Shown in pieces: positions 21,302 through 35,529 of a stretch of DNA of 64,000 nucleotides (positions are counted from its first letter, which is position 1; each line of letters begins with the position of its first letter). Source of the DNA: Aurantiacibacter rhizosphaerae (GTDB lineage: Bacteria; Pseudomonadota; Alphaproteobacteria; Sphingomonadales; Sphingomonadaceae). The notes under the pieces were generated by a model. It made no database searches, was not told where the DNA came from, and saw only the letters and a program-made list of their open reading frames with translations. Where the stretch lies: positions 992,001 through 1,056,000 of the forward strand of contig NZ_WUBR01000001.1 of the NCBI RefSeq assembly GCF_009807005.1. Reading direction: 5' to 3'. A program made the translations under genes and the position numbers.

Positions 21302-22096
21302 ATGAGTATTGGTGCAGAAGTCGCCGCACATCTACCGTTTCTTCGCCGCTATGGCCGCGCCCTCACAGGGTCACAGTCGACAGGCGATGCATTTGTTCAA
21401 GCTACACTGGAAGCCGCACTGGCCGACGATGATCTGGCAGACAGCCTGCGTGGTGGCCGTGTGCCGCTGTACAAGGCTTTCAACAAGGTCTGGTCCAGCG
21501 CGTATATGGAAGTTGAAGAGGCTCAATCCGAAGGCTCTTCTCACGAAGTTGCCGCACAGGATCAGCTGAAGCGTATCACGCCGGTCAACCGTCAGGCCCT
21601 GCTGCTGACCACGGTGGAAGACTTCACGACCGCTGAAGCTGCAGAAATCATGGATATGGACGAAGGCGATGTTGAATCGCTGGTTCGTGAAGCTGTGGCC
21701 GAGATCGAGCGTGAGAGCAGCACCAGCGTTCTCATCATCGAGGACGAGCCGCTGATCTCCATGCAGTTGGAAGACCTGGTGAAATCGCTGGGTCACGAAA
21801 TCTGCGGCACCGCAGCCACGCGTACGCAGGCGCAGGAAGTTGTTGCGGAAACAACGCCGGGCCTGGTGCTGGCCGATATCCAGCTGGCCGATGGTTCATC
21901 TGGTCTAGATGCGGTGGACGATATTCTGGCGATTGAATCGGTGCCGGTGATCTTCATCACCGCCTATCCCGAACGCCTGCTGACGGGTGACCGTCCGGAG
22001 CCGACCTATCTGATTACCAAGCCTTTCCAGGAAGACACGGTGCGTGCTGCGATCAGCCAGGCCCTGTTCTTCGGCTCCAGCCGTCCGCTGGACTAA
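21302..22096 (+). CDS. phyR: General stress response regulator PhyR (sigma-like plus receiver)
   Basis: A 264-residue anti-anti-sigma regulator. The N-terminal EcfG-like half has a sigma-2-like part (about 5-60) and a sigma-4-like part (about 90-137, with TTAEAAEIMDMDEGDVESLV). The C-terminal receiver (about 142-258) has IIEDEP, phosphoacceptor D192 in LVLADIQLADGSSG, FITAYPE and K240. When phosphorylated, PhyR binds the anti-sigma NepR and frees EcfG. nepR, ecfG and a cognate kinase, often adjacent to phyR, are not within this window. It is preceded by an EcfG-type promoter and GGAAGGG. Confidence 0.96.
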   Translation: MSIGAEVAAHLPFLRRYGRALTGSQSTGDAFVQATLEAALADDDLADSLRGGRVPLYKAFNKVWSSAYMEVEEAQSEGSSHEVAAQDQLKRITPVNRQALLLTTVEDFTTAEAAEIMDMDEGDVESLVREAVAEIERESSTSVLIIEDEPLISMQLEDLVKSLGHEICGTAATRTQAQEVVAETTPGLVLADIQLADGSSGLDAVDDILAIESVPVIFITAYPERLLTGDRPEPTYLITKPFQEDTVRAAISQALFFGSSRPLD

Positions 22097-22118
22097 AGAC
22101 GGCCACGGTTGAAGATGA

Positions 22119-23504
22119 TTAAGCGTCCCCGGCGGCCTGTTCGCCGGGGCGCTTCCACAATACCCACCAGGCAATCGCAGCGGCGGCCAATCCGCCCAGC
22201 AGGTTTGCCGCCAGTTCGCCATAATAGATCGCATCGGTGCCCAGCGCCCCGCGCAGCAGCCACGCGAATGGCACCATCACCAGCAGGACACGCGTGATCG
22301 AAAGGGCCAGCGCATTGCTGGCGCGATCGATGGCGTTCAGCGCGCCGTTCACCACGATCAGCACGCCATATCCGGCATAGCCCCACACGGAAATCGACAG
22401 ATAGGCCGTTGTCGCGTCCAGCGTCTGCGCCTCGTCACTGAAGAGGTTGGCAAACCAGCCGCGCAGGCTGAACAGCAGCACAGCTGAGGCAAGGCCATAG
22501 CCAAGGCAGAACAGCCCGGCCTGCACCAGTGCGCGCCGCGCCCGGTCATACTGCCGCGCGCCCCAGTTCTGCCCCACGATCGCGCCGATGGAGCCTGACA
22601 GCGCCAGCAATGGCACCACGGCAAAGCTCTGCAATCGTCCGCCAGCACCAAACCCAGCGACCGCTGCCGAACCCTCTATCGCCAATAGCGATGTCAGCAC
22701 GGCAAGGCCCGCGGGATTGATCGAGTTGGTAAAGGCCGCCGGCCCGGCAACACGGGTCAACGCCTTGAGCTGTCGACCGAAATTGCAATTGCGAACAGCC
22801 GATGGGCGGAAGGGCAGCGCGTGCCGTTCCAGCAGCAAGAAGGCGACGATCACCCCCACCAGCCAGCCGCCAATCGTGGCATAGGCTGCCCCTGCAACGC
22901 CAAAGCCTTCAAAACCGAATGCGCCGGTGATCAGCAGCGGGTCCAGAACCCAGTTCACCATGGAATAGATGATCAGCACCGCCGTATTGCTTTTGGCGGC
23001 ACCCTGTCCGCGCAGCACGCCGTTTGCGCCCATCATCGTCATCATCAGGATGAAGCCGAAGGCGTAGGGCTGCATGTAAAGATCGATCAGCGGCAGAACA
23101 TCGGCATCGGCCTGCATCAGTTGGAACAGCGGCCGGCGAAGCACATACAGCAGCAGGCCCAGCACGATCCCTGCGGCAAGGCCCAGCATCAGGCCCAGGT
23201 TCGCGCGGGCGAGGGCGCGTTCGTCATCCCCTTCGCCCAATGCGCGGCTGACTACCGAATTAATGCCCACCATCACGCCCACGCCAAGGCTTTGCAGCGC
23301 GGTGATAACGGGGAAGATGAAGCTGATCGCCGCCAGTTCATTCGCGCCAAGCTGGCCGATGAAATAGGCATCGATCACGCCGACAGACATGATCGCCGCA
23401 ACGCCGACGATTGCGGGCGTTGTCTGCGTAACAAGGTGCCCGGCTATCGATCCGCGCACCAGCTTGGCGCGCGGATTGTCGGGTGTTTCGGTGGATGTGG
23501 CCAT
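22119..23504 (-). CDS. MATE-family efflux transporter
   Basis: A 461-residue cation-coupled multidrug or metabolite exporter with 12 hydrophobic spans in two similar halves. Features include an opening GSIAGHLVTQTTPAIVGVAA, a GIN-SVVSRALG segment (MVGINSVVSRALGEGDDERA, about 80-100) and a mirrored PLLALSGSIGAIVGQNWGAR in the second half. Substrate unknown. It lies 53 bases downstream of the second alcohol dehydrogenase on the same strand, so it could be read as the last gene of the ketone locus. The spacing does not prove this. Confidence 0.9.
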   Translation of the reverse strand: MATSTETPDNPRAKLVRGSIAGHLVTQTTPAIVGVAAIMSVGVIDAYFIGQLGANELAAISFIFPVITALQSLGVGVMVGINSVVSRALGEGDDERALARANLGLMLGLAAGIVLGLLLYVLRRPLFQLMQADADVLPLIDLYMQPYAFGFILMMTMMGANGVLRGQGAAKSNTAVLIIYSMVNWVLDPLLITGAFGFEGFGVAGAAYATIGGWLVGVIVAFLLLERHALPFRPSAVRNCNFGRQLKALTRVAGPAAFTNSINPAGLAVLTSLLAIEGSAAVAGFGAGGRLQSFAVVPLLALSGSIGAIVGQNWGARQYDRARRALVQAGLFCLGYGLASAVLLFSLRGWFANLFSDEAQTLDATTAYLSISVWGYAGYGVLIVVNGALNAIDRASNALALSITRVLLVMVPFAWLLRGALGTDAIYYGELAANLLGGLAAAAIAWWVLWKRPGEQAAGDA

Positions 23505-23557: not shown

Positions 23558-24559
23558 TCAGGGCGCGATCAACACCTTGCATTGCTGAGTCCGGCGTTTG
23601 AGGCTTTCAAACACCTCCGGCGTATCCGAAAGGCTGATTGTATCGGTCACCAGCAGGCGCGGGGCGATGGCGCCTGCATCCAGCGCCGATAGCGCGGCCT
23701 GGTATTCGGGAACGGTGAAGAAAGCACTGGTTATCAGCCGCACCTGCTTTGACAGCATGGCAAAGGTGTTGAGTGTATCGGGCTTTGTGCAAAGGCCTAG
23801 CAATACGATAGTGCCATCGGGGCGCACCTGGCTTACCGCCTGATCGATCAGGCCGGGGATGCCGACGCATTCGAACACCACATCCGCCTCACGCCCAAGG
23901 CCCTGCTTTGCGCTCTCCACGGGATTTTCGGGATCGACTACGAAGATATCCGCGCCCATTTCCAGCGCGCGCGATTGCTGGAAACCGGCGATATCCTGCA
24001 CCGCCACCTTGCCCGCGCCAAATCGTTTTGCCCAGAACGCTACGGCGAGGCCAATAGGGCCAGCGCCCAGCACCAGCACGCTGTCACCTGTGCGCATGCC
24101 GGACAGGTTTATGCCATGAAGGGCCACGGCGAGGGGTTCGATGATTGCGCCATCGGCCAGGGTAAGATCACTGGGCAGGGGCACGCACTGGTTGGGGCGG
24201 GTGACGGCATATTGGGCATAGCCGCCGCCCTGAAGGCCAAACCCCTCACACCATTGCACGGCGCCCTTGCGGCAATGATCGCATTTGCCGCAGCTTTTGA
24301 GCGGGATGACGGAGACGAGATCGCCGACCTTGTGGCCCGCCGTGTCCTTGCCAAGGCCGACGACTTCACCGGCAAATTCATGGCCCAGAATGTCACCATG
24401 CTGGCAGCCGTAGGCAGCATCCTGCGTCATATGCAGGTCGCTGCCGCAGATACCGCAGCGGCCCACTTCCACCACCAGTTCACCTTCGCCGGGCGTGGGA
24501 TCGGGCACTTCCTCGAAAGCGAGAGGCTGGTGCAGGCCCTGAAAGGTGACGGCTTTCAT
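23558..24559 (-). CDS. Zinc-binding alcohol dehydrogenase, MDR superfamily
   Basis: A 333-residue medium-chain dehydrogenase. GRCGICGSDLHM carries the catalytic zinc Cys, ILGHEFAGEV follows, and CGKCDHCRKGAVQWC forms the structural-zinc loop. The nucleotide fold has VLGAGPIGLAV. It resembles 2,3-butanediol or sorbitol-type polyol dehydrogenases, so an alpha-hydroxyketone or diol is a plausible substrate. The ATG follows immediately after the TAG of the upstream dehydrogenase gene with no spacer, indicating coupled translation. Confidence 0.88.
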   Translation of the reverse strand: MKAVTFQGLHQPLAFEEVPDPTPGEGELVVEVGRCGICGSDLHMTQDAAYGCQHGDILGHEFAGEVVGLGKDTAGHKVGDLVSVIPLKSCGKCDHCRKGAVQWCEGFGLQGGGYAQYAVTRPNQCVPLPSDLTLADGAIIEPLAVALHGINLSGMRTGDSVLVLGAGPIGLAVAFWAKRFGAGKVAVQDIAGFQQSRALEMGADIFVVDPENPVESAKQGLGREADVVFECVGIPGLIDQAVSQVRPDGTIVLLGLCTKPDTLNTFAMLSKQVRLITSAFFTVPEYQAALSALDAGAIAPRLLVTDTISLSDTPEVFESLKRRTQQCKVLIAP

Positions 24560-25678
24560 CTACTCGGCAGAGATGCGCAGCACAGGCTTCACCACCTCGC
24601 CGCTTTCGCTGGCCTCGATCCCGGCGTTGATATCGTCGAAGTCGAAATACTGGATCAGGCGGTCGAACGGGAATTTGCCGTCCTGGTGATAGGCGATGAG
24701 TTCGCAGATGAAGCTGCCGACATCGCTGTCCCCGCCAAGAATACCGATCACCCGCTTGCCGCCGCCCATCAGGGCGCTTTCATTGAGGTTCAGCATGTCT
24801 TCGGGCGGGCTTGCGCCAACCAGGCCGAGGACGCCCATCGGCGCAATCAGCGGGAAGACCCCCTCGATAACCTTTTTCACTCCGGTCGTATCGAATGCAT
24901 AGGCAAGGCCCTGCGGCACCAGTTCCTCCAGCTTGTCCATCGCATCGTCACCCGCCTTGATGGTGTGCGTTGCGCCAAGTTCCTTGGCCAGTTCCAACCG
25001 GCTGTCATGCATGTCGACAGCGATGATCGGGTCTGCGCCAGCGATCTTGGCGGCCATGATGGCGGCAAGGCCCACAGTGCCCACGCCGAATACCGCAATC
25101 GGCAGGCCTTCGCGCACCTCCATGCTGCGCAGCACTGCGCCAGCGCCGGTCATCAGGCCACAGCCAAGGGGTGCGAGGCGTTCAAGTGGCAGGTCCGCGG
25201 CGCTGTCAGGCACTTTTACCACGTTGCGTTCATGCGCGATGGCGTGGGTGGCGAAGGAGGACTGACCGAAGAAATTGCCGCCGATGTCCTCTCCATCACA
25301 TGTGATGGTGGCCGATCCGTCAGGCCGGCGGCCGGAGAAGTTGTTCGGCCCGAAGTTGTAGCAATAGGTGGGCGCGTCCACATCGCAGCTGGGGCATTCC
25401 CCGCAGGAATTGAAGCTGATGATCACGCGATCACCGGCTTTGGCGGCGCTGACTGCACTGCCAACCTTTTCCACGATGCCGGCACCCTCATGCCCCAGAA
25501 CAGCGGGAAGCGGCGTTGGCAGCTGCTGATCGCGCACGGCCATGTCGGTATGGCAGATGCCGGTGGCAACGATGCGGATCAGCAGTTCGTCATCGCGCAG
25601 TTCGTCCAGCTCGACATCGGCGATGTGGAATTCCTTGCCCTCTCCGGGACAAATGGCGGCGCGTGTCTTGGTGGTCAT
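24560..25678 (-). CDS. NAD-dependent zinc alcohol dehydrogenase, aryl-alcohol type
   Basis: A 372-residue MDR enzyme. The catalytic zinc ligands are in TGICHTDMAVRD and VLGHEGAG plus the later GCGLMTGAGAV; structural zinc is in CGECPSCDVDAPTYC. The cofactor motif is VFGVGTVGLAAI. The pattern is that of aryl- or benzyl-alcohol dehydrogenases (XylB-like), which oxidise aromatic alcohols to aldehydes. It lies 49 bases after the SDR gene and directly before the second dehydrogenase gene. It probably handles an alcohol or aldehyde intermediate of the locus. Confidence 0.88.
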   Translation of the reverse strand: MTTKTRAAICPGEGKEFHIADVELDELRDDELLIRIVATGICHTDMAVRDQQLPTPLPAVLGHEGAGIVEKVGSAVSAAKAGDRVIISFNSCGECPSCDVDAPTYCYNFGPNNFSGRRPDGSATITCDGEDIGGNFFGQSSFATHAIAHERNVVKVPDSAADLPLERLAPLGCGLMTGAGAVLRSMEVREGLPIAVFGVGTVGLAAIMAAKIAGADPIIAVDMHDSRLELAKELGATHTIKAGDDAMDKLEELVPQGLAYAFDTTGVKKVIEGVFPLIAPMGVLGLVGASPPEDMLNLNESALMGGGKRVIGILGGDSDVGSFICELIAYHQDGKFPFDRLIQYFDFDDINAGIEASESGEVVKPVLRISAE

Positions 25679-25727
25679 TTCAGCTCCATTGGCATTCGGA
25701 TTTATGCAGGTTCAACGCGCAGGGCGC

Positions 25728-26591
25728 TCAATCGTTCAGCGGTTTGATCGGGCCCAGCTGCATGCCGCCATCGATCATCACGTGGCTGCCGGTCATGTAG
25801 CTGCCAGCATCGCTGGCCAGCAGCAGGGCGAGCGGCTTGATCTGGTAGGTTTCGGCCATCCGGCCCACGGGCACGAGCTTGTCCCACGCCTCCTTGGCCT
25901 TGGGATTCTTCTTCACCCAGCCATCGCCGATATTGGTGACGAAAGGGCCGGGCGCGATGGCGTTTACGCGGATGCCGTGGGCGGCCAGTTCATAGGCCGC
26001 GTGGCGCATGAAGTGCTTCACCCCGGCCTTGGCCGCCATATAGGGCACGCCCACGATAGCCTCGTTCACCTCTGCCGCATTGGAGGAGGTGATGACGATA
26101 CTGCCGCCGCGGCGCTGCCCGTTACCCTCGTTCGCCTTCATCACCCGCGCGGCCTCGCGCAAGGTGTGGAATACGCCGGTCAGGTTGATGCCGATGCTTT
26201 TGTCCCAGCTGTCCTTGGGAAAGACGTCGATCTGGCCTGCCGGGTTGCGCTCGTCTTCCGGGCTCCAGAATCCGTTGCCGACGTCCAGTCCGGCATTGGC
26301 AAAGGCGATATCGCAACCGCCATAGGCCGCCACGTGATTGTCGAAAGCCTGCGCCACCTGATCCAGATCGGAGACGTCGCAGCTTTCCCAGCGTGCCTCG
26401 TAACCCTGATCGGTGAACCGCGCCGCTTCTCTCGCCGCGCCTTCGGCGTCGATATCGGTGATGGTCACCTTCGCACCCGCTTCCGCCATGGCTTCTGCAT
26501 AGGCGAGGCCGATGCCGGAGGCAGCACCCGTTACAAGGGCGCTTCGTCCCGCAATATCGAACTGGTCGAGAGTGCGTGGCTCCTCGCTCAC
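25728..26591 (-). CDS. SDR-family oxidoreductase
   Basis: A 287-residue Rossmann-fold dehydrogenase. The cofactor motif is TGAASGIG (21-28), an aspartate follows in ITDID (NAD preference), NAG is at the fourth strand, the catalytic Ser is in VITSSNAAEV, and YMAAK supplies the Tyr-Lys pair. PGPFVTNIG follows. I start at the GTG at 26591, which overlaps the stop of the preceding cupin gene by three bases, rather than an in-frame ATG inside that gene. It probably interconverts a secondary alcohol and ketone in the pathway. Confidence 0.88.
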   Translation of the reverse strand: MSEEPRTLDQFDIAGRSALVTGAASGIGLAYAEAMAEAGAKVTITDIDAEGAAREAARFTDQGYEARWESCDVSDLDQVAQAFDNHVAAYGGCDIAFANAGLDVGNGFWSPEDERNPAGQIDVFPKDSWDKSIGINLTGVFHTLREAARVMKANEGNGQRRGGSIVITSSNAAEVNEAIVGVPYMAAKAGVKHFMRHAAYELAAHGIRVNAIAPGPFVTNIGDGWVKKNPKAKEAWDKLVPVGRMAETYQIKPLALLLASDAGSYMTGSHVMIDGGMQLGPIKPLND

Positions 26592-27145
26592 AGATACAGC
26601 TGCCGGTTGATCTCCAGCCCGTTCTCTTTGCAGTAGGTCTCGTAGTGGTTCATGAACCACCATACATCCAGCGTTTCCACGAAATTGCCATTCTCATCGT
26701 AGAACTCGTTGGCACCCTGCATCCAGAAGAATGCCTTCATGCCATTCGGCTCATCGGTGACGAGCGTATGTGCATGGCCGGGAAATTCCGTGATGAATTC
26801 GCCGGGGCCGCAGACCCAGTCGTATTCCAGGTAGCGGAACGTGCCTTCCATGCCGATCGCCCACACCATGCCGCGATGCTTGTGCGTGCCGATCACGCCG
26901 GGGGACTTGATCCACAAGATGTTGGCATAGACATTGTTCCGCACGTCGAATGCCAGGTGCCGGATGGCTGCGTTGTCGCCAAAGGGGACCCACGGGCTCT
27001 CTTCTTCCGAGCGGCCGACATAGGTGCCGGGGATGCAATACTGATCGATCATGTTCTTGTGCGCTTCGGGCACTTCCACGATCTTGAATGCGCCGGAAGG
27101 TGGGGCCTTTATGCCGCCAAGCTGCGATTTTTCCTGCGTTGCCAT
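26588..27145 (-). CDS. Cupin dioxygenase, 2,4'-dihydroxyacetophenone dioxygenase family (copy 1)
   Basis: A 185-residue single-domain cupin. Metal ligands expected for the family are H88 and H90 (GTHKHRG) and H126 (PGHAHTL). The usual cupin Glu after HxH is not in place. The characterised member cleaves the C-C bond of 2,4'-dihydroxyacetophenone with O2 at a non-haem iron. The downstream half (YLEYDWVCGPGEFI to LDVWWFMNHYE and RQLYL) is very like copy 2. GGGAG sits seven bases before the ATG. Substrate unproven. Confidence 0.85.
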   Translation of the reverse strand: MATQEKSQLGGIKAPPSGAFKIVEVPEAHKNMIDQYCIPGTYVGRSEEESPWVPFGDNAAIRHLAFDVRNNVYANILWIKSPGVIGTHKHRGMVWAIGMEGTFRYLEYDWVCGPGEFITEFPGHAHTLVTDEPNGMKAFFWMQGANEFYDENGNFVETLDVWWFMNHYETYCKENGLEINRQLYL

Positions 27146-27157
27146 GTCAGGCTCCCT

Positions 27158-27697
27158 TTAAAGATACAGCTTCTTGTTGATGGGAATGCCGTGTTCCTTG
27201 CAGTGGTTTTCATAGTGTTCGATGAACCACCACACGTCGACGGTATCCATATAGGTGCCCTCGGCATCGTAGAACTGGATCGGGCCGTTCATCACGCCGA
27301 ACAGCTTACAGCCCTCTGGGTGCTCCGTTACCAGCGTATGCGCTTCGCCCGGTGTTTCCAGGATCAGGCCGCCCGGCGTGCCGATCCAGTCATATTCCAG
27401 ATAGCGCACGCTGCCCTCCAACGTGATCATCGTCACCGTGCCGCGATGCAGGTGGGTGCCGATGGTGCCGGGGCCCTTCATCCAAAGGATGTTCATATAC
27501 GTATTGGTGCGAACGTCGAAGCTCAGATGCTTGATCGCGGCCCCGTCTCCGAAGGGCACCCATGGGGAATCCACATCGGTCAGCGCATCGATATACCGTC
27601 CGCCGGGGCTCAGCCGCTCCACCGTGTCACGATAGGCCCAAGGCACATCGACGATTTCCTTGGTGTCTGACGGCGGGGCTTTGAGTTTGGTGACCAT
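27158..27697 (-). CDS. Cupin dioxygenase, 2,4'-dihydroxyacetophenone dioxygenase family (copy 2)
   Basis: A 179-residue close paralogue of copy 1, from SPWVPFGDGAAIKHL through to KKLYL. Probable metal ligands are H82 and H84 (GTHLHRG) and H120 (PGEAHTL). The pocket-facing positions after HRG differ (TVTMITLEG against MVWAIGMEG), suggesting another substrate or a hetero-oligomer partner. Twelve bases separate it from copy 1, and AGGAG precedes its ATG. All predicted ligands are intact, so it is not an obvious pseudoenzyme. Confidence 0.85.
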   Translation of the reverse strand: MVTKLKAPPSDTKEIVDVPWAYRDTVERLSPGGRYIDALTDVDSPWVPFGDGAAIKHLSFDVRTNTYMNILWMKGPGTIGTHLHRGTVTMITLEGSVRYLEYDWIGTPGGLILETPGEAHTLVTEHPEGCKLFGVMNGPIQFYDAEGTYMDTVDVWWFIEHYENHCKEHGIPINKKLYL

Positions 27698-27711
27698 GAT
27701 GGCATCTCCTT

Positions 27712-28245
27712 TTATCGGATCAGGGTGTCGACATAATCGGCGCCGATGCCGACGGCGTCATAATGGGTGCGGGCCAGTTCCATGTAATCGAACACGTCAA
27801 AATGGCCGACGCTTTCGCCGTTCTCGTTCAGCCACATCAGCGGGCCGGATACGACGAAGAAGACCTTCATCGGGTCTTCGTGTTCATAGGCTACCAGCGT
27901 GTGGCTTTCGCCCGGCGCCTCGAAGATGAAGTCGCCTGCCGTGGCGGTCCATTCATGCTCGAGATAGGCCCATTTGCCGCTGATGGTGTAGGCCCAGATG
28001 GGCTTGGGATGGTAATGCCGGTTCACGATGCACGGCTTTGTCGCCATCAGCACATCGGCCCACATGTTCAGCGTAGGGCTGATCCACACCGGCTTTGACG
28101 AGACATTCTCGACAATCGGCACCCAGTATCGTTCATCACCCTCTGCGATCTTGGCCATATAGGCCTCTGGCATCGCGCCGGGACGTAGGGCGTGGGGTAC
28201 GGGCGGAGTCCCGGCCCAGGGTTCGGTCGTGGGTGCCTCTGGCAT
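27712..28245 (-). CDS. Cupin dioxygenase, 2,4'-dihydroxyacetophenone dioxygenase family (copy 3, divergent)
   Basis: A 177-residue third paralogue, clearly more distant. The metal ligands H77 and H79 (NRHYHPK) and H115 (PGESHTL) are retained, as are YLEHEW and the final VFDYMELARTHYD. It has an extended Pro-rich N-terminus and lacks the shared C-terminal LYL of copies 1 and 2. The ATG at 28245 with GGAGA upstream is preferred to a TTG at 28257. It is the first cupin transcribed, 14 bases before copy 2. Its different pocket hints at a different step. Confidence 0.82.
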   Translation of the reverse strand: MPEAPTTEPWAGTPPVPHALRPGAMPEAYMAKIAEGDERYWVPIVENVSSKPVWISPTLNMWADVLMATKPCIVNRHYHPKPIWAYTISGKWAYLEHEWTATAGDFIFEAPGESHTLVAYEHEDPMKVFFVVSGPLMWLNENGESVGHFDVFDYMELARTHYDAVGIGADYVDTLIR

Positions 28246-28359
28246 CTGTCTCTCCAACTCGGTCCGCGTTTGGCCGCGAATCTCGATCTCAGCGCAGTTT
28301 ATCCTAACGCACGTTATTATGCGACATGGTTGTTTGGCTGCATTCTTCCCGCTGCCCGA

Positions 28360-29700
28360 TCATGCCGGGTTTGCGGTTTCGCCCCGGCGGCGAAGTGCCG
28401 CAGGTGCGGTTTCCTTCAGGCCCATGGCCACGAAGCCGCTGATCACTGCCAGCACCATCAGCACGTAAAGGAAGGTTTCCGGCCCGTAGGCATCGTTCAG
28501 CAGTCCGGCGAGCGGCGGGCCAAGGACGCCGCCCAGCACCTCGCAGCTGCCCATGGCAAGGCCCAGCACGGTGGCGTGATGGATGGGGCGGAAGCTTTCC
28601 GAAGGGATCGTGGCCATGAAGATCGGGAACACGCCGTTCACCATCCATCCAATGAAAAAGATAGGGATCAGAACGGTGGCATAGCCGGAGAGGCCCAGCA
28701 GCCCGTCGCCCGTAAAGCTGGCGGGATCGAGGTAGATCACGCCCAGCGGCCCGATCAGGGAAAGGAAGGGCAGGAAGACCATCACCGGCTTGCGCCCGAT
28801 CTTGTCCGATATGCCCGCCACCACGAAGCTGTAGATCGCAGCGGCAATGCCCAGCGAACCGACCAGCCAGCTCATGGAAAAGGCATCCATCCCGCGCGTT
28901 TGCACCAGGAAGTTGGGCATGAAGGCCCAGGTGATCACGAAGTGTGCCACCAGCAACACACCCACCACCACGCTGACCCACATGTTGCGGACCTTCAGCG
29001 CTTCGAGAAAGCCGATGGCCGAATGGTGATCGCCAGCCGTGCCAACCTGCGCAGAGATTTCGGCGGCAGGCTCCGGCTCACGTAGCATGAGCCAGATAAG
29101 GCCTGCGCTCAGCAGGCCGGGCAGGGCCGCTAGGTAGAATGCCTCGCGCCAGCTGAATGCGGTGGCGAAGGCCACCAGCACCACGGGTGCGGCGAAGCTG
29201 CCCAGCAGATTGGAGCCAAGGTTCTGCGCCACGCCCTGAGCCAGCCCGCGCCGTTCGGGGTTCACCTCGCTTGCCACCATGGCATGGCTGATCGGCATCA
29301 CGCCGCCTTCGGCTGCGCCCATCAGCAGGCGGGCGGCGAACAGGAACAGGAAGCTGGTGGCAAGGCCGGACAGGAAGCTGCACAGCGAGAACGCGATGGT
29401 GGCGATCACCAGAAGGATCTTTCGCTTGCCGATACTGTCCGACAGGCGACCCACGAAGAAGGCGGCAATCGCCCAGCTGAAGGACAGGCCGCCTGCCAAG
29501 AGGCCGATCTGCGTCTGCGACAGTTGCAGATCCGGTTGCACGAAGGGCATCAGCGCGTTCAGCGCCTGCCGATCGAAGAACACGATGCCGAAGTTCAGGC
29601 TCAGCAGCAGCACCAGCAGCGTCTGATAAGCGGGTGAGTTGGTCACCCAGTTGCCTTGCGCTTCGCCGCCAGCGTGGATGTGGGCAGGATGTGTGGCCAT
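28360..29700 (-). CDS. MFS transporter, anion:cation symporter-like
   Basis: A 446-residue, 12-span major facilitator. It shows FGIVFFDRQALNALMPF in helix 1, the loop motif GRLSDSIGKRKILL and RLLMGAAEGGVMPISHAMVA, the signature of organic-anion symporters (tartrate, hexuronate and phthalate carriers, ACS family). It probably imports an organic acid used by the adjacent catabolic genes. It starts at the ATG at 29700, twelve bases after the small gene at 29713-29853, and ends 114 bases before the cupins. Confidence 0.85.
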   Translation of the reverse strand: MATHPAHIHAGGEAQGNWVTNSPAYQTLLVLLLSLNFGIVFFDRQALNALMPFVQPDLQLSQTQIGLLAGGLSFSWAIAAFFVGRLSDSIGKRKILLVIATIAFSLCSFLSGLATSFLFLFAARLLMGAAEGGVMPISHAMVASEVNPERRGLAQGVAQNLGSNLLGSFAAPVVLVAFATAFSWREAFYLAALPGLLSAGLIWLMLREPEPAAEISAQVGTAGDHHSAIGFLEALKVRNMWVSVVVGVLLVAHFVITWAFMPNFLVQTRGMDAFSMSWLVGSLGIAAAIYSFVVAGISDKIGRKPVMVFLPFLSLIGPLGVIYLDPASFTGDGLLGLSGYATVLIPIFFIGWMVNGVFPIFMATIPSESFRPIHHATVLGLAMGSCEVLGGVLGPPLAGLLNDAYGPETFLYVLMVLAVISGFVAMGLKETAPAALRRRGETANPA

Positions 29701-29712
29701 GTCGTGGAGTTC

Positions 29713-29853
29713 CTATGCCAGGGGGCGGATAACGTTCGGCTCGGCCTTGCGCACGGCAATCGGGTGGCTGGCGACAGCGTTCAGATAATGGGCGGTGAAA
29801 GCGGCCTGCGCGATCCCGCCGATGGGCTGGCCATAGCCAGACGTATCTGCCAT
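29713..29853 (-). CDS. 46-residue protein heading the ketone-locus operon
   Basis: A short gene with a strong GGGAGGA ribosome site five bases before its ATG. The product begins MADTSGYGQPIGGIAQ and ends NVIRPLA. It has no signal peptide, no membrane span and no motif that I recognise. It lies 12 bases before the MFS transporter gene on the same strand. The ribosome site and position argue that it is translated. It might be a small regulatory or accessory subunit; function unknown. A longer in-frame reading to 29928 lacks such a site. Confidence 0.55.
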   Translation of the reverse strand: MADTSGYGQPIGGIAQAAFTAHYLNAVASHPIAVRKAEPNVIRPLA

Positions 29854-29867
29854 CGAATCCTCCCGAA

Positions 29868-29889
29868 TTGCCGGTCTTGTTTGCCGGTC
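29868..29889. repeat. Tandem direct repeat TTGCCGGTC in the divergent promoter region
   Basis: TTGCCGGTC occurs at 29868-29876 and 29881-29889, a 13-base period, between the divergent 46-aa gene and the aldolase-like gene. It may be a regulator site for both operons; this is inference. Confidence 0.4.
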
Positions 29890-29970
29890 CTTATACGCAG
29901 TGCTTGCCAGCCCACGCGACAAAGTCAATCTCGCGCTGTAGACAAGAGGGAATCACGAGGGAGAGAATCA

Positions 29971-30729
29971 ATGGCTACCCAGATGAATGACAATGTCGAT
30001 TGCAGTACCCAGGAATGGCAGGCGCGGCTGGATCTGGCCGCGGCCTATCGCATCTTTGCGCATCTTGGCTGGTGCGAGAGCATTTATAATCACATCACGC
30101 TGCGTGTGCCCGGCACCGAAAACCAGTTCCTCATCAATCCATACGGTCTGTTGTGGGAGGAGGTAACCGCGTCCAGCCTGGTGAAGATTGACGAGAACGG
30201 GCAGAAGCTTGGCGACAATCCGCACCCTGTAAATCTGGCGGGCTTCACCCAGCACAGCGTATTTCACAAGAATCTGCCGCACGCCCATGCCATCGTCCAC
30301 ACGCATACGCCGGACACGATGGCGGTCTGCGCTACCGAAGGGGGCCTGCAGGCCAGCAATTTCTATTCCTGCTTCTTCGAAGGCGCCATCGGCTATCACG
30401 ATTTTGAAGGCATCACCGTGCGCAGCGAGGAGGGGGAGCGGCTGGTGAAGAACGCCGGCAATCACCAGATCATGATGCTGAAGAACCATGGCCCCGTGGT
30501 GATGGGCCGCACGATCTACGAGATGTTCCTGCTCTACTACATGCTGCAGCGCGCGTGCGAGGTGCAGGTGAAGACCGCCGCGATGGGCAAGCCGATCATC
30601 GTGCCGCCAGAAGTGATCGAAACGCACCAGCGCGACCGTGACAGACAGTTGACGGATGACTTCGGCAAGCTGGACTTTGCCGCCTGGACGCGCAAGATCG
30701 ACGCCATCGATCCCAGCTGGCGCGACTGA
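29971..30729 (+). CDS. Class II aldolase / adducin-family protein
   Basis: A 252-residue zinc-dependent aldolase-fold protein. HAIVHTHTPDTMAV supplies the HxH metal ligands, and the later MLKNHGPVVMGRT supplies the third His. The family includes fuculose-phosphate aldolase, decarboxylases and hydroxyketone-acting lyases, so C-C bond cleavage of a hydroxyketone is plausible. The family Glu near 70-90 is not obvious, so activity is not certain. The ATG at 29971 follows GAGGGAG. It is divergent from the MFS-cupin genes and directly upstream of a 2Fe-2S protein gene. Confidence 0.85.
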   Translation: MATQMNDNVDCSTQEWQARLDLAAAYRIFAHLGWCESIYNHITLRVPGTENQFLINPYGLLWEEVTASSLVKIDENGQKLGDNPHPVNLAGFTQHSVFHKNLPHAHAIVHTHTPDTMAVCATEGGLQASNFYSCFFEGAIGYHDFEGITVRSEEGERLVKNAGNHQIMMLKNHGPVVMGRTIYEMFLLYYMLQRACEVQVKTAAMGKPIIVPPEVIETHQRDRDRQLTDDFGKLDFAAWTRKIDAIDPSWRD

Positions 30730-30745
30730 GAGGCCTGCCTACACA

Positions 30746-31312
30746 ATGACGGCAATGACGGTAAACGAACGGCCTGTCGATTTCGACATGGACCCTGCCA
30801 CGCCATTGCTGCACGCGCTGCGCGATGCGGCGAATTTGACGGGCACGAAATACGGCTGCGGCGTGGGCGATTGCGGCGCGTGCATGGTGCTGGTGGATGG
30901 GGAGGCGCTGCGTTCCTGCCTCGTCACCATTGCGGAGGCCGAGGGCCGCTTCATCACCACCATCGAAGGGCTGAGCCGAGATCGCTCACACCCGGTGCAG
31001 CAGGCGTTGGTGGCAGAGCAGGCGATCCAGTGCGGTTTCTGCACGCCGGGCATCGCCATTGCCGCTGCCAGCCTGCTGCGCAGCAATCCCGATCCCACAG
31101 AGGCGCAGATCAGGGACGCGATACCCAATTTGTGCCGCTGCGGTGTCTATCCGCGCCTTGTGCGCGCCGTACAGCGCGCGGGCCGCGTGGCGCGTCGGCG
31201 TGAAACGATCAGCGCCGCGCCTGCACCGGGGATCGATCCGGAAGACGCGGCGCGTGCCGTTCCGGGTATGCGCATGAAGGGCGCAGGATCGGACGGCGAG
31301 GGACCGAACTAG
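30746..31312 (+). CDS. Orphan (2Fe-2S)-binding subunit of a molybdenum hydroxylase
   Basis: A 188-residue electron-transfer protein of the xanthine-dehydrogenase small-subunit type. The plant-ferredoxin cluster uses C38, C43, C46 and C58; the second uses C96, C99, C130 and C132 in CGFC and CRC. A 40-residue Arg/Ala/Pro tail follows. The catalytic molybdopterin subunit normally encoded next to it is missing: the next gene is a convergent TonB receptor. It could serve a large subunit encoded elsewhere, or the iorB product at 1487-3688. The start is the first of two ATGs (30746, 30755). Confidence 0.85.
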   Translation: MTAMTVNERPVDFDMDPATPLLHALRDAANLTGTKYGCGVGDCGACMVLVDGEALRSCLVTIAEAEGRFITTIEGLSRDRSHPVQQALVAEQAIQCGFCTPGIAIAAASLLRSNPDPTEAQIRDAIPNLCRCGVYPRLVRAVQRAGRVARRRETISAAPAPGIDPEDAARAVPGMRMKGAGSDGEGPN

Positions 31313-31316
31313 GCGA

Positions 31317-33380
31317 TCAGAACCGCAACCTTGCGCCAAAGCTGACATTCAGCGGGGCGCCCGGCTGGATGTTGTTGTCGCCATGCGCGCTGGGAAAATA
31401 GTCCTCGTCGAACAGGTTCTCCACATTGGCCTGCAGAGTCAGCATATCGGTCGCCTCGAAAAACACGGCGGCATCCACGCGGGTGTAGGATGGCAGCACG
31501 ACGTTGTTGCTGAGCGATGCGTATTGCTCTGACAAATGCGTCAGTCCGGCGCCAAAGCCGATCCGGTCCGTCACGTCATAGCGGGCCCATGCGGTGATCT
31601 GGTGTTCGGGCACCTGCTGCAACCGCGTGCCGGATGTGGCCGATGTGGTGGTGGAGGTGATTTCCCCGTCGAGATAGGAATAGCCAAGGGAGAGGGAGAG
31701 GCCGTCCACTGGCTCTCCGATCAGGCCCAGCTCAAAGCCTTCTACTTCGCTTTCACCTGCCAGAATCACCAGGCCGGTGTTGGCAGGATCGGGCGCAGTG
31801 GTGTTGGATCGGGTGAGGCGGAAAACCGCCGCCGTCAGCAATAGGTCGCGGTGCGGTGCCCATTTCACGCCGGCTTCGATATTCTCGAAAACCTCCGGCT
31901 CCAGCGATGCGGACTGCTGGTTCAGCACGGTAAACTGGTTGCCGGATTGCGGCAGGAAGCTTTCGGCATAGCTGGCGTAGATCGACAGATTATCCATCGG
32001 TTTCAGGATCGCACCAAAGCGCGGGCTGACCCGATCATCCACGCGGGCCCCATCGAAATTGGCGATGATATCGGTGCTTTCCAGATCAAAGCGATCATAG
32101 CGCACGCCGGCCACCAGTTGCAGAATGCCGATATCCAGCTGTTCCTGCGCATAGAAGGATAGCGTGGTCAGCTCGCTGGCGCTGGCGCGTTGCGGCACCA
32201 GGGTAAAGCTGGGCACGGAAATCGTATCGTCCAGCGGCACGGTGACGCCGGTGTCCGCGCCGTTGTTGAACAATGCGCGGTTGCGGAAGGCATCGGTGTC
32301 CTGCGTTCCTGCCTCTGCACCCACCAGCAGAGTGTGGCTGAGCGATCCTGTGTCGAACTGCCCCACCAGGTTCACCTGCCCGATCAGGTTCTGGCGATCC
32401 GTGCCGCTTTCATATCCGCCGAGGTTGACGGTGGTGGCCGTTGCTCCGCCGCCCGGAACGATATTAGCATAGAACTTGTCGTAATCGGCGAACATCACGC
32501 TGGCGTTCACGCTCCACGCGCCGCTGATATCATGTTCAAGCCGGGTGCGGGCCACATGCACTTCCACATCGCTGGAATTGTAATCGGGATCGCCGAAGAA
32601 CGTCTCGTCATAGCCGCGCAGCGGGCCGCCGTTCAGCGACGGCAGGCCGCGGTCGACCACGCGCTTGTCATTGTCATAGGTGTAATAGGCGTACAGCCGT
32701 GTGTCCGGGCCGAGGTTGGCCGTGACGGTGGGGGAGAAGCCGATGAAACGGCCTTCATACACGTCGCGGTGGTTGTCGAACTCTTCATACGTCCCGGTGA
32801 GGCGGACGGCCACGCTTTCGCTGGCGGGCAGGTTGGCATCGCCAGTAAAAGCGAACGCGCCGAAGCTATCCACCTGTGCGCCCAGCGAATATTCGGGCGC
32901 GCCGAATTCTGCCACCTTGGACACGCGATTGATCGCGCCGCCGCCTGCGCCGCGCCCGAAGATCAGGGCGTTGGCACCTTTCAGCACTTCAACACGTTCC
33001 ACATTATACAGCGGGCGGTAATATTCGGCATCGTCGCGCAGGCCATCGATATAGAAATCCGCCGTGGTTTCCTGCCCACGAATGAACACCTCGTCACGGT
33101 GGCCTTCACCCGTTTCCAGGCTGACACCGGGGACGAAGCGCAGCGCATCGTTCAGGCTGGTGACGCCCTGGTCTTCCAGCTGGTCTGCCGTGATGACGGT
33201 GATGGCCTGGGGCACATCGATGATGGGGGTGGGGGTCTTTGTGCCGGTGCTGCCGTCTTCGTTCACATAGGTTTCCCGATCACCCGTAACCACGATATTG
33301 CCAGGCAGGTAATCACGCTGTGCCTCTGCCGCGGAATTGGCCATGGCGGTGGTGGGAGCAAGTGTGGCGGCGCCTGCCAA
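31317..33380 (-). CDS. TonB-dependent siderophore receptor
   Basis: A 687-residue outer-membrane receptor. The plug domain contains IIDVPQAITVITADQLEDQG, VFIRGQETTADFYIDGLRDD and VERVEVLKGANALIFGRG, the pattern of ferric-siderophore (FhuE/Fiu-like) receptors. A 22-strand barrel ends with an aromatic F (GARLRF). A Fur box lies upstream. The start is awkward: a TTG at 33380 leaves a truncated signal peptide, while the full hydrophobic signal would begin at ATC codons at 33408-33413 behind GAGGG. The siderophore is not identifiable. Confidence 0.9.
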   Translation of the reverse strand: MAGAATLAPTTAMANSAAEAQRDYLPGNIVVTGDRETYVNEDGSTGTKTPTPIIDVPQAITVITADQLEDQGVTSLNDALRFVPGVSLETGEGHRDEVFIRGQETTADFYIDGLRDDAEYYRPLYNVERVEVLKGANALIFGRGAGGGAINRVSKVAEFGAPEYSLGAQVDSFGAFAFTGDANLPASESVAVRLTGTYEEFDNHRDVYEGRFIGFSPTVTANLGPDTRLYAYYTYDNDKRVVDRGLPSLNGGPLRGYDETFFGDPDYNSSDVEVHVARTRLEHDISGAWSVNASVMFADYDKFYANIVPGGGATATTVNLGGYESGTDRQNLIGQVNLVGQFDTGSLSHTLLVGAEAGTQDTDAFRNRALFNNGADTGVTVPLDDTISVPSFTLVPQRASASELTTLSFYAQEQLDIGILQLVAGVRYDRFDLESTDIIANFDGARVDDRVSPRFGAILKPMDNLSIYASYAESFLPQSGNQFTVLNQQSASLEPEVFENIEAGVKWAPHRDLLLTAAVFRLTRSNTTAPDPANTGLVILAGESEVEGFELGLIGEPVDGLSLSLGYSYLDGEITSTTTSATSGTRLQQVPEHQITAWARYDVTDRIGFGAGLTHLSEQYASLSNNVVLPSYTRVDAAVFFEATDMLTLQANVENLFDEDYFPSAHGDNNIQPGAPLNVSFGARLRF

Positions 33381-33557: not shown

Positions 33558-33902
33558 ATGAAAGCGACCATCTGGCACAATCCGAGATGCAGCAAATCCC
33601 GCAGCACGCTGGCGATTCTGGAGAACCGCGAAGGCGTGGAGGTGGACGTGGTGGAATATCTGAAAAACCCGCCAAGCCGCGACAAGCTGGCCCAGCTTTA
33701 CAAGGATGCGGGCATGTCACCTGCGCAAGGACTACGCCTGGGTGGAACTGACGCGAAGGAACGCGGCCTGCCCGAAGCCGATGCAGACACCGTGCTGGAT
33801 GCGATGGCCGCCGATCCCAAGCTTATCGAACGTCCGCTGGTGGAAACGCCCAAGGGCGTGCGCCTGTGCCGTCCACCCGAAAAGGTGGAAGAAATCCTCT
33901 GA
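33558..33902 (+). CDS. ArsC-family arsenate reductase-like protein
   Basis: A 114-residue thioredoxin-fold protein of the glutaredoxin-linked ArsC/YffB family. It has the active-site Cys in WHNPRCSKSR (residue 11) and the family arginine region in ERPLVETPKGVRLCRPPEKV. The family reduces arsenate using glutathione and glutaredoxin; relatives such as YffB lack arsenate activity. No arsB, acr3 or arsR is nearby, and its position beside a Fur box argues against a dedicated arsenic role. It starts at the ATG at 33558. Confidence 0.82.
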   Translation: MKATIWHNPRCSKSRSTLAILENREGVEVDVVEYLKNPPSRDKLAQLYKDAGMSPAQGLRLGGTDAKERGLPEADADTVLDAMAADPKLIERPLVETPKGVRLCRPPEKVEEIL

Positions 33903-33938
33903 CGGGCACGCCCGGCGCGCGCCCGTCACTTCGCCCTA

Positions 33939-34775
33939 TTATTCGAAGGTTTCGCGTGCGCGGGCGGTGCTTCCACCGCTCAGCTGGCGATGCACGGCGG
34001 CAAGAACGGCCAGCATGATGGTGGTGTAGACCATGCTGATCAGGCCGCCGCCGATTGCCGTCACCAACAGGCCGATGGTTTCCCCCAGCACGGCGAACAG
34101 CGCAAATATCAATCCGGCCACCAGGGACAGCACCACCACCGCCACGATCAACAGCACGTAAAGCGCGAACAGCCGCAGGGAATTGCCCTTCGTCAGCCGC
34201 CATGACCGGGTCAGCGCATTGATCGGGTTCATGATGCCTTCGATGGCAATCACGGGAGAAGTCAGCGACAGCTTCACCCAGATGTACACCATCAGCGCGA
34301 TGCCGACGAAAACCATGATCACGGCCAGCGCCGCGTTGATGGCCGCGCCCAGCGCGATCAGCAGGATGGATGGCACCACCATGGCAAGGCCAAGCAGGAT
34401 TTGCGCGATGATATAGGGGATCAGCGCCTTGCCGCCGAAGGTCAGCGCCTCCCCCACGGTGGGGCGCGACTTGTCTGTCAACAATGCCAGCAGGCCCAGC
34501 ATGCCGACGGCCTGCACCAGCGTGATGATCAGGTATATCCACCAGCTGCCGGCGAAATGATCCGCGAACAGGGCCATGACTTCCTGCGGATCGGGCTGAT
34601 CGCCCAGGGCCTGCATCTGCATCACGAACGCATCTTGCGACGGCAGCACCAGAGCCGAGATGACATTGGGCAGGAAGAAGAACACGGCAGCCACGATCAG
34701 CACGACATCGCGATTGGCGGAAAGCAGCGAAGTCGCCTCGTTCCACGCGCGCTCAAGATCCAGTTTTTCGCCCAT
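33939..34775 (-). CDS. Multi-span membrane protein, glycerophosphodiesterase-membrane-domain-like
   Basis: A 278-residue protein with about six hydrophobic spans (25-45, 75-98, 120-140, 145-168, 200-228, 235-265) and a short amphipathic N-terminus, MGEKLDLERAWNEA. The SWRLTKGNSLRLFALYVLL segment resembles the membrane domain found in glycerophosphoryl diester phosphodiesterases and related integral proteins. There is no catalytic domain. Function unknown; it lies alone between the ArsC-like gene (convergent) and lipB (divergent). Confidence 0.6.
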   Translation of the reverse strand: MGEKLDLERAWNEATSLLSANRDVVLIVAAVFFFLPNVISALVLPSQDAFVMQMQALGDQPDPQEVMALFADHFAGSWWIYLIITLVQAVGMLGLLALLTDKSRPTVGEALTFGGKALIPYIIAQILLGLAMVVPSILLIALGAAINAALAVIMVFVGIALMVYIWVKLSLTSPVIAIEGIMNPINALTRSWRLTKGNSLRLFALYVLLIVAVVVLSLVAGLIFALFAVLGETIGLLVTAIGGGLISMVYTTIMLAVLAAVHRQLSGGSTARARETFE

Positions 34776-34842
34776 ACCACCCTCGTTTCATGAATTGCCC
34801 ACTTGATAAGCGCCTTCACACCCGCCACGCAATCGCCAAACC

Positions 34843-35529
34843 ATGACCGACGCACACCTTTCTGATTTTGCCACGCCCGATGCGGGCATCGAATGGCGCC
34901 GATCCACGGGGCAGGTGCCCTATCGGGATGCATTGGCGCAGCAGCAGGCGCGCAGCGATGCCCTGATCGCCGGCGAAGGGCAGGAACTGGTGTGGATGCT
35001 GGAACATCCGCCCGTCTACACGGCCGGCACCAGCGCCGATGGCAGCGAGCTTGTGGATGCGCGTTTCGATGTTGTCGAGACAGGCAGAGGCGGGCGCTAC
35101 ACCTATCACGGCCCCGGCCAACGCGTGACCTACGTGTTGCTGGACCTGAAGAACCGTGCGCGCGATGTGCGCCAGTTCGTCCATGCGATGGAAGGCTGGG
35201 TAATTGCCACGCTGGCCGATTTCGATGTGCAGGCTTTCGCCGTGCCGGAACGAGTGGGCATCTGGACGCATGACCTGACCGGCGCAGAGGCGAAGATCGG
35301 CGCCATCGGCGTGCGCGTGCGGCGTTGGGTCACGATGCACGGATTTGCGGTGAACCTGTCGCCGGATCTATCCCATTTCGGCGGCATCGTGCCCTGCGGC
35401 ATCGCCGAATATGGCGTTACCAGCATGGCGGCCCTTGGAAAGACAGTTGCGCCCGATGAATGGGATGAGGCATTGCTGGCCCGCGCCGGGAATTTCCTCG
35501 AGGCTATTTCGATTCCGGAGAATTCATAG
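34843..35529 (+). CDS. lipB: Octanoyltransferase LipB
   Basis: A 228-residue enzyme that moves octanoate from acyl carrier protein to lipoyl domains, the first step of lipoate assembly. The family motif [13 protein letters not shown], the catalytic Lys in AKIGAIGV and the catalytic Cys in IVPCGI are all visible. The first 20 residues form a short extra N-terminus. The start is the ATG at 34843. lipA is not in the window. A small lipoprotein gene follows four bases after its stop. Confidence 0.96.

Follow-up and report, generated by a model that had tools for sequence, protein, structure and literature searches.

Comparison with described systems

The enzyme 2,4'-dihydroxyacetophenone dioxygenase (DAD, EC 1.13.11.41) catalyzes the O2-dependent cleavage of 2,4'-dihydroxyacetophenone to 4-hydroxybenzoate and formate. 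We analyzed a 64,000-nucleotide stretch of the 3.42-Mb genome of Aurantiacibacter rhizosphaerae (G000:C1:992001-1056000, referred to as a whole as the window), in which three paralogous genes for DAD-related cupins (CUP1, CUP2 and CUP3) lie in one operon with genes for a short-chain dehydrogenase/reductase (SDR), two zinc alcohol dehydrogenases (ADH1 and ADH2) and a transporter of the major facilitator superfamily (MFS). The sequence evidence favors, with moderate confidence, a reading of this locus as a catabolic module for aromatics with an oxygenated side chain, namely aryl carbinols, vicinal diols and aryl ketones of the lignin or hydroxyphenylalkanone type. Structures of DAD are those of the Alcaligenes sp. 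4HAP enzyme (PDB 4p9g/5bpx), and cupin residues are numbered as in DAD, with the roles given in PMC4219425.

The hydroxyphenylethanone pathway of Rhodococcus GD02 (Hpe) and Sphingobium SYK-6 (Acv) acts on the same substrate class as that proposed here, but its route is ATP- and biotin-dependent, and the hpe genes named in the accessible text of the paper (PMC9618137) include no cupin. Carboxylase-phosphatase sets resembling HpeC/A/B/D are found beside Novosphingobium cupin clusters and, in the present genome, at a site away from the cupin locus. The AcpAB acetophenone pathway, which couples a Baeyer-Villiger monooxygenase (BVMO) to an esterase (PMC9618137), cleaves the ketone by Baeyer-Villiger oxidation and not by dioxygenation; a PAMO-like BVMO and HSL esterase pair resembling acpAB is present in the loci of a few relatives but not in the window locus. 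In cluster G-II of Novosphingobium sp. MBES04 a four-gene operon begins with a DAD-like gene; strong induction of this operon was seen with a lignin preparation and with GGGE, and both the phenylpropanone GHP and 2,4'-dihydroxyacetophenone elicit a response from its promoter (PMC10866074). By analogy this induction pattern would fit an inducible aryl-ketone role, although the other three G-II genes are reported as hypothetical and the likeness to the window locus is one of description only. Literature searches for DAD-like genes or cupins in the catabolism of sphingomonads or of lignin, which left subscription papers mostly outside, returned no described three-cupin cluster, and the accessible text of the review PMC12997858 mentions neither 'cupin' nor 'dihydroxyacetophenone dioxygenase'. 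The cleavage chemistry is known; the set of paralogs and the locus architecture are new.

The three cupins share a catalytic core and differ in their pockets

The cupin genes follow one another on the minus strand (CUP3, 27712-28245; CUP2, 27158-27697; CUP1, 26588-27145). CUP1 and CUP2 are 55% identical to each other and either is about 28-32% identical to CUP3. All three match DAD (4p9g) in the PDB, CUP3 with E=4e-73, CUP1 with E=2.6e-19 and CUP2 with E=3.1e-19, while against the Pfam Cupin_7 model (cut-off 27 bits) CUP2 (30.5 bits) and CUP3 (34.4 bits) score above and CUP1 (21.3 bits) below. Pocket residues were scored in the window cupins and those of the named loci described below (53 CUP1, 81 CUP2 and 60 CUP3, excluding matches of ≤150 residues or bearing stop codons). 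The iron ligands His76, His78 and His114, together with Tyr93 and Glu108, are identical in 194/194 of these proteins, the catalytic set being kept in 60/60 CUP3 and in 134/134 CUP1 and CUP2. This conservation bears on whether one or two of the cupins might be non-catalytic, as ChrR-like sensors or inactive paralogs: Pfam describes Cupin_7 as a ChrR cupin-like domain and anti-sigma ChrR is among the weak PDB matches, but the complete ligand and catalytic set, the free-standing domain and the far better match to DAD make such a role very improbable.

Outside the catalytic set the pockets are characteristic of each group. Positions 61 and 63 are Trp-Asp in 60/60 CUP3, Tyr-Asn in 53/53 CUP1, and Phe-Asn or Tyr-Asn in 81/81 CUP2; position 129 is Phe in CUP1, Gly in CUP2 and Phe in CUP3 (60/60), and position 135 is Asn, Ile and Leu, respectively. 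Variation within groups is seen at other pocket positions (148 and 153 in CUP2, 148 and 156 in CUP3). The pocket of the window CUP1 is accordingly Tyr61, Asn63, Phe129 and Asn135 and that of CUP2 Tyr61, Asn63, Gly129 and Ile135, whereas CUP3 mostly retains the DAD pocket (Trp61, Asp63, Ser49, Phe129, Trp137, Phe148 and Tyr153) and differs from it by Ile at Phe43 and Val82 and Leu at Met156. Replacement of Phe43, the second stacking residue, by Ile, Met or Val extends across the CUP3 group. A 78-row tree places CUP3 and DAD 4p9g in one group with support of 100/100 and CUP1 and CUP2 in another, where CUP2 forms a clade (100/99) and CUP1 is drawn as a stem group. Judged by these sequence features CUP3 would be a DAD apart from the replaced Phe43, while CUP1 and CUP2, which depart from DAD both at Trp61/Asp63 and in their clade, are classed here only as putatively working like DAD. 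The first-pass annotation of this DNA had assigned all three cupins to the DAD family; the cupins are not equivalent, however, CUP1 and CUP2 matching DAD at far weaker E-values than CUP3. Retention of the same iron and catalytic residues alongside group-specific pockets in CUP1 and CUP2 favors different substrates over redundancy, and we infer from the sequences that all three cupins are functional enzymes whose substrate pockets differ.

The cupins share the DAD fold, and AlphaFold2 models of CUP1 (pLDDT 91.1) and CUP2 (pLDDT 94.5) were obtained. Among solved structures the CUP2 model matched DAD (5bpx/4p9g) first, followed by the uncharacterized 3ebr and 3cjx, with acetylacetone dioxygenase 3bal, likewise a cupin dioxygenase of a ketone but one acting on a beta-diketone, at rank 9 (E=1.5e-9, 16% identity). 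The 3bal match speaks for an alternative in which CUP1 and CUP2 are beta-dicarbonyl dioxygenases resembling acetylacetone dioxygenase: in that case a beta-hydroxypropiophenone, e.g. beta-hydroxypropiovanillone (HPV), would be oxidized by SDR and ADH1 to an aroyl acetaldehyde, which is a beta-ketoaldehyde and from which the cupins would form an aryl acid and glyoxal, bypassing the known CoA route. Novosphingobium aromaticivorans is known to oxidize HPV to vanilloyl acetaldehyde (PMC11837543), and in MBES04 the phenylpropanone GHP induces the DAD-like gene; however, the phenylpropanone reportedly does not serve this strain as an energy source (PMC10866074), and the MBES04 gene is likened to CUP1-3 by its published description only. 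With DAD far closer to the CUP2 model than acetylacetone dioxygenase is, the beta-dicarbonyl alternative appears unlikely.

Conservation and organization of the locus

A scan of the genome collection by CUP2 similarity gave 223 relatives, the best 80 of which were kept; counts refer to the 60 of these named loci longer than 18 kb (the other 20, ≤18 kb, were excluded), so that CUP2 is present in 60/60 by construction. SDR is found in 58 of the 60 loci, ADH1 in 56, the MFS transporter in 54, a Glyoxalase_4 gene in 50, CUP3 in 46 and CUP1 in 41. Less frequent are an AraC regulator and a second type of TonB receptor (37 each), a Rieske protein (33), an MBL hydrolase (22), a [2Fe-2S] subunit (21), a class II aldolase-type protein (20), ADH2 (13) and a TonB receptor of the type at the edge of the window locus (9). 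The nearest named locus, in Alteraurantiacibacter aquimixticola, carries a CUP2 that is 93% identical. CUP2 occurs in 26/99 relatives (E<=1e-20), in whose stretches similar gene orders recur, and CUP3 in 47/195 genomes of the genus of one relative (G229; E<=1e-40). As the same order recurs in many genomes, the gene set is not due to chance. The co-occurrence of cupins, SDR and both alcohol dehydrogenases across Sphingomonadales that had been proposed as a check holds for SDR together with ADH1 (56/60), with three cupins present in 35/60 and ADH2 in 13/60; by their low counts ADH2, the aldolase and the [2Fe-2S] subunit are not core parts.

In the window the genes are transcribed from the minus strand in the order MFS, CUP3, CUP2, CUP1, SDR, ADH2, ADH1 with gaps of 0 to ~115 bases. 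The core dehydrogenase genes are SDR (25728 to ~26597, minus strand, with a longest open reading frame (ORF) to 26663 and a likely GTG start, judging from the sequence, near 26591-26597 that would overlap the end of CUP1) and ADH1 (23558-24559, minus strand), a medium-chain Zn dehydrogenase of the polyol/(R,R)-butanediol/threonine dehydrogenase type. The accessory ADH2 (24560-25678, minus strand) is a Zn alcohol dehydrogenase of the aryl (benzyl) type, with benzyl alcohol dehydrogenase 1f8f among its best PDB matches (E=1e-94). The transporter (28360-29700, minus strand) was recognized by profile matches, its best NCBIfam models being D-galactonate and MhpT-type organic or aromatic acid carriers, all below cut-off.

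All three cupins are present in 35/60 loci, on one strand in 35/35 and contiguous as CUP3-CUP2-CUP1 in 33/35. Type strains carrying the complete cluster include Novosphingobium subterraneum DSM 12447 (L140) and N. capsulatum NBRC 12533 (L152). A fixed order of this kind, together with the DAD quaternary structure (dimeric in the crystal and tetrameric in solution; PMC4219425), would suit the earlier proposal that the three cupins work successively on a single substrate or assemble into a hetero-oligomer. The remaining 25 loci, however, lack one or two cupins (11 have CUP2 and CUP3, 8 CUP2 only and 6 CUP1 and CUP2), and single-cupin modules with SDR and ADH1 are found on plasmids of Halomonas and Pseudosulfitobacter. 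A cupin number varying from 1 to 3, with each cupin carrying its own group-specific pocket residues, is better explained by separate substrate ranges, and succession or hetero-oligomerization is now improbable.

Plasmid contexts were opened for 4/128 CUP2 records and 4/51 CUP3 records. The minimal cupin-SDR-ADH1 module occurs on one Halomonas plasmid and again on the Pseudosulfitobacter plasmid, there with ABC importers and with an alcohol dehydrogenase 53% identical to ADH1 and an SDR 52% identical to that of the window. In the four CUP3-like contexts, a 2,3-butanediol dehydrogenase 35% identical to ADH1 adjoins the DAD-like gene in Agrobacterium, a thiamine diphosphate enzyme is accompanied by an SDR and an aldehyde dehydrogenase in Sulfitobacter and Ensifer, and an MFS transporter and an SDR are found in Paraburkholderia, all of which fits diol or acyloin chemistry. 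The butanediol dehydrogenase in Agrobacterium also counts toward an alternative with a non-aromatic substrate, a terpenoid or an aliphatic acyloin or vicinal diol that would be oxidized by SDR and ADH1 and cleaved by the cupins, the aromatic neighbors then reflecting a generalist lifestyle. ADH1 and SDR do match families whose substrates include polyols, butanediol, borneol and carbonyl compounds, and the phenol contacts Trp61 and Asp63 are absent from CUP1 and CUP2; on the other side, the accessory genes are of aryl type and the closest characterized enzyme acts on an aryl substrate.

Several further observations concern the setting of the cupin genes. In part of the loci, mostly from the genus of the window, the island is flanked by a PhyR-type regulator/MATE pair on one side and arsC-lipB on the other (window 21302-23504 and 33558-35529), and the content between these flanks (MBL, Rieske, BVMO with esterase, AraC, TonB-dependent receptor) varies by species. 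A plasmid of Sphingobium sp. TomTYG72 (L086:9399-19283) carries a CUP1/2-type cupin with a TonB receptor and a SnoaL-like gene, adjoining one-carbon genes annotated gcvT, metF, purU and folD, a combination reminiscent of tetrahydrofolate-dependent O-demethylation. The present genome encodes a further Cupin_7 protein (L061, G000:C1:889575-889862, 38.8 bits) ~126 kb from the locus, and the 19-kb stretch around it gave a single match to the locus genes, a TonB receptor at 28%.

Association with aromatic catabolism

The link to aromatic catabolism was assessed through the ring-cleavage dioxygenase LigB. At a cut-off of E<1e-70, LigB was found in 26/26 CUP2-positive and 6/73 CUP2-negative relatives, and within the genus in 23/23 and 3/17. 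An order-wide sample gave strong LigB matches in 31/31 and 53/365 genomes, or 25/25 and 52/357 without the genus of the window, where nine genomes out of 40, whose cupin matches were weak (E between 5e-16 and 2e-22), were scored CUP1/2-negative; three of the nine have strong LigB. As a non-aromatic control, GH43 was found at E<1e-70 in 12/26 vs 16/73 relatives (p=0.02) and within the genus in 11/23 vs 6/17 (p=0.5); at E<=0.001 the values were 15/26 vs 20/73 (p=0.008) and 14/23 vs 10/17 (p=1). Because GH43 lacks a within-genus association, the LigB signal within the genus is not explained by lifestyle. This persistence of LigB, but not GH43, within the genus counts against a non-aromatic substrate, which we consider rather unlikely even though GH43 is mildly associated across genera. 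The genome itself encodes, over NCBIfam cut-offs, a LigB-type dioxygenase, LigK and OMA tautomerase (L214), which together would provide a protocatechuate 4,5-cleavage sink, as well as gallate dioxygenase and hydroxycinnamoyl-CoA hydratase/lyase.

A number of points weigh against an aromatic module. The strict LigB cut-off (E<1e-70) was set after the data had been seen and the LigB statistics ignore kinship; with any match (E<=0.001) the counts become 26/26 vs 31/73, and 23/23 vs 7/17 within the genus. The weak association of GH43 across genera suggests that lifestyle could account for part of the between-genus LigB signal, and selection of the named loci by CUP2 similarity over-represents close kin. 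CUP1 and CUP2 are without Trp61 and Asp63, the modeled contacts of DAD to the phenolic hydroxyl, so that these two need not act on a 4-hydroxyaryl compound. The window locus contains no obvious alpha-hydroxylase for plain aryl methyl ketones, suggesting that the substrate arrives hydroxylated or that the enzyme lies elsewhere, and the Rieske gene of 33/60 loci is missing from it (the search covered the locus only). Lastly, adjacent genes may serve mixed pathways, and some of the accessory genes described below are found in few loci.

Neighboring and accessory genes

The genes named in the first-pass annotation are all present on the strands claimed, minus and divergent plus, with one correction. 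The supposed 46-aa protein (29713-29853, minus strand) matches only the first residues of the Glyoxalase_4 (VOC-fold) protein of relatives, ~185-190 aa long, and is thus an N-terminal remnant of that gene, comprising approximately its first 46 codons, and not a small protein of its own. Presence of the Glyoxalase_4 gene in 50/60 loci and of the MBL hydrolase in 22/60 counts in favor of the beta-dicarbonyl alternative, but the Glyoxalase_4 protein is about equally like methylmalonyl-CoA epimerase and lactoylglutathione lyase, and the gene is broken in the window.

On the divergent flank lie a class II aldolase/adducin-type protein (29971-30729, plus strand; NCBIfam PRK07044, 324.6 bits against a cut-off of 207) and a [2Fe-2S] small subunit of the xanthine dehydrogenase/IorA kind (ORF 30656-31312, plus strand, from profile matches), for which the sequence suggests a probable start near 30746. 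No molybdenum subunit adjoins the latter. Genome-wide there are three MoCoBD and three Fer2_2 matches, and as the MoCoBD at G000:C3:221499-221888 alone has no Fer2_2 nearby, it may pair with the orphan [2Fe-2S] subunit. A TonB-dependent receptor (31317-33380, minus strand) marks the edge of the locus and is possibly linked to it. Scans of the sequence for promoters and terminators showed no excess over shuffles, and a repeat scan gave nothing beyond short two-copy matches.

Related loci carry further enzymes. The PAMO-like BVMO (E=3e-163) and HSL esterase lie together inside three loci (L040, L045 and L047), and the BVMO alone in a fourth (L053); elsewhere are found a PCMH-like flavoprotein (1dii, E=1e-165) with cytochrome c, a Rieske protein closest to dicamba O-demethylase, a benzoylformate decarboxylase and the syringate O-demethylase DesA. 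In one Novosphingobium genome (G228, L224:218-5546) a set identified by Pfam as UPF0261 protein, biotin carboxylase, carboxyltransferase and HAD phosphatase adjoins the cupin cluster, and a second genome (G258, L225) has the same ORF order. The present genome carries the carboxylase set at L226:5757-18494 (G000:C1:943757-956494), ~60 kb from the cupin locus and accompanied by PCMH (78% identical), MBL, SDR and a TonB receptor, whereas the window gave no carboxylase/HAD set match (E<=1e-8). Together with the cupins, the BVMO and the carboxylase set bring to three the kinds of aryl-ketone enzyme found at such loci or in their vicinity.

The UPF0261 gene heads these HpeCBA-D-like sets (L226, L224 and L227:9833-15230), where Hpe/Acv, as described in the accessible text, has a phenol kinase; the UPF0261 protein may be an alternative activating enzyme. 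No HpeHI-like kinase is among the ORFs listed beside the carboxylase sets (no profile search for the kinase was run). The UPF0261 profile matched 6/99 genomes, 3 of them CUP2-positive, too few for an association test.

Proposed function and implications

The order of events proposed earlier, import, oxidation of an alcohol and cupin-catalyzed C-C cleavage, is supported, probably on aromatic ketones, but without ADH2, the aldolase and the [2Fe-2S] subunit as core parts. Import would be by the MFS transporter, with a TonB receptor in many relatives. From their families, SDR would oxidize a benzylic alcohol to the ketone, and ADH1 and ADH2 would act on diols of the side chain and on aryl alcohols or aldehydes. 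Acting as Fe(II) 3-His dioxygenases, the cupins would then use O2 to cleave between the carbonyl and the hydroxyl-bearing carbon, yielding an aryl carboxylic acid and a short acid. CUP3 probably takes a DAD-like substrate, a 4-hydroxyaryl hydroxymethyl ketone, while the different pockets and retained catalytic residues of CUP1 and CUP2 make other ring patterns or longer side chains likely for these two. The aryl acid, of the 4-hydroxybenzoate, vanillate or syringate type, would enter the protocatechuate 4,5-cleavage and gallate pathways encoded in the genome.

A broader interpretation can be offered only tentatively. The locus may represent an undescribed CoA- and ATP-free oxidative route for lignin-type C6-C2 and C6-C3 aryl ketones and ketoaldehydes, in which three cupins with complementary pockets would cover methoxylation patterns or side-chain lengths, carried on an exchangeable island that would operate with, or replace, the BVMO (AcpAB-like) and carboxylase (Hpe/Acv-like) routes. 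Such a dioxygenase route, if widespread, would be shorter and could be used in lignin valorization. The paralog-specific pockets also offer natural material for studying the choice of ketone substrate by 3-His cupins.

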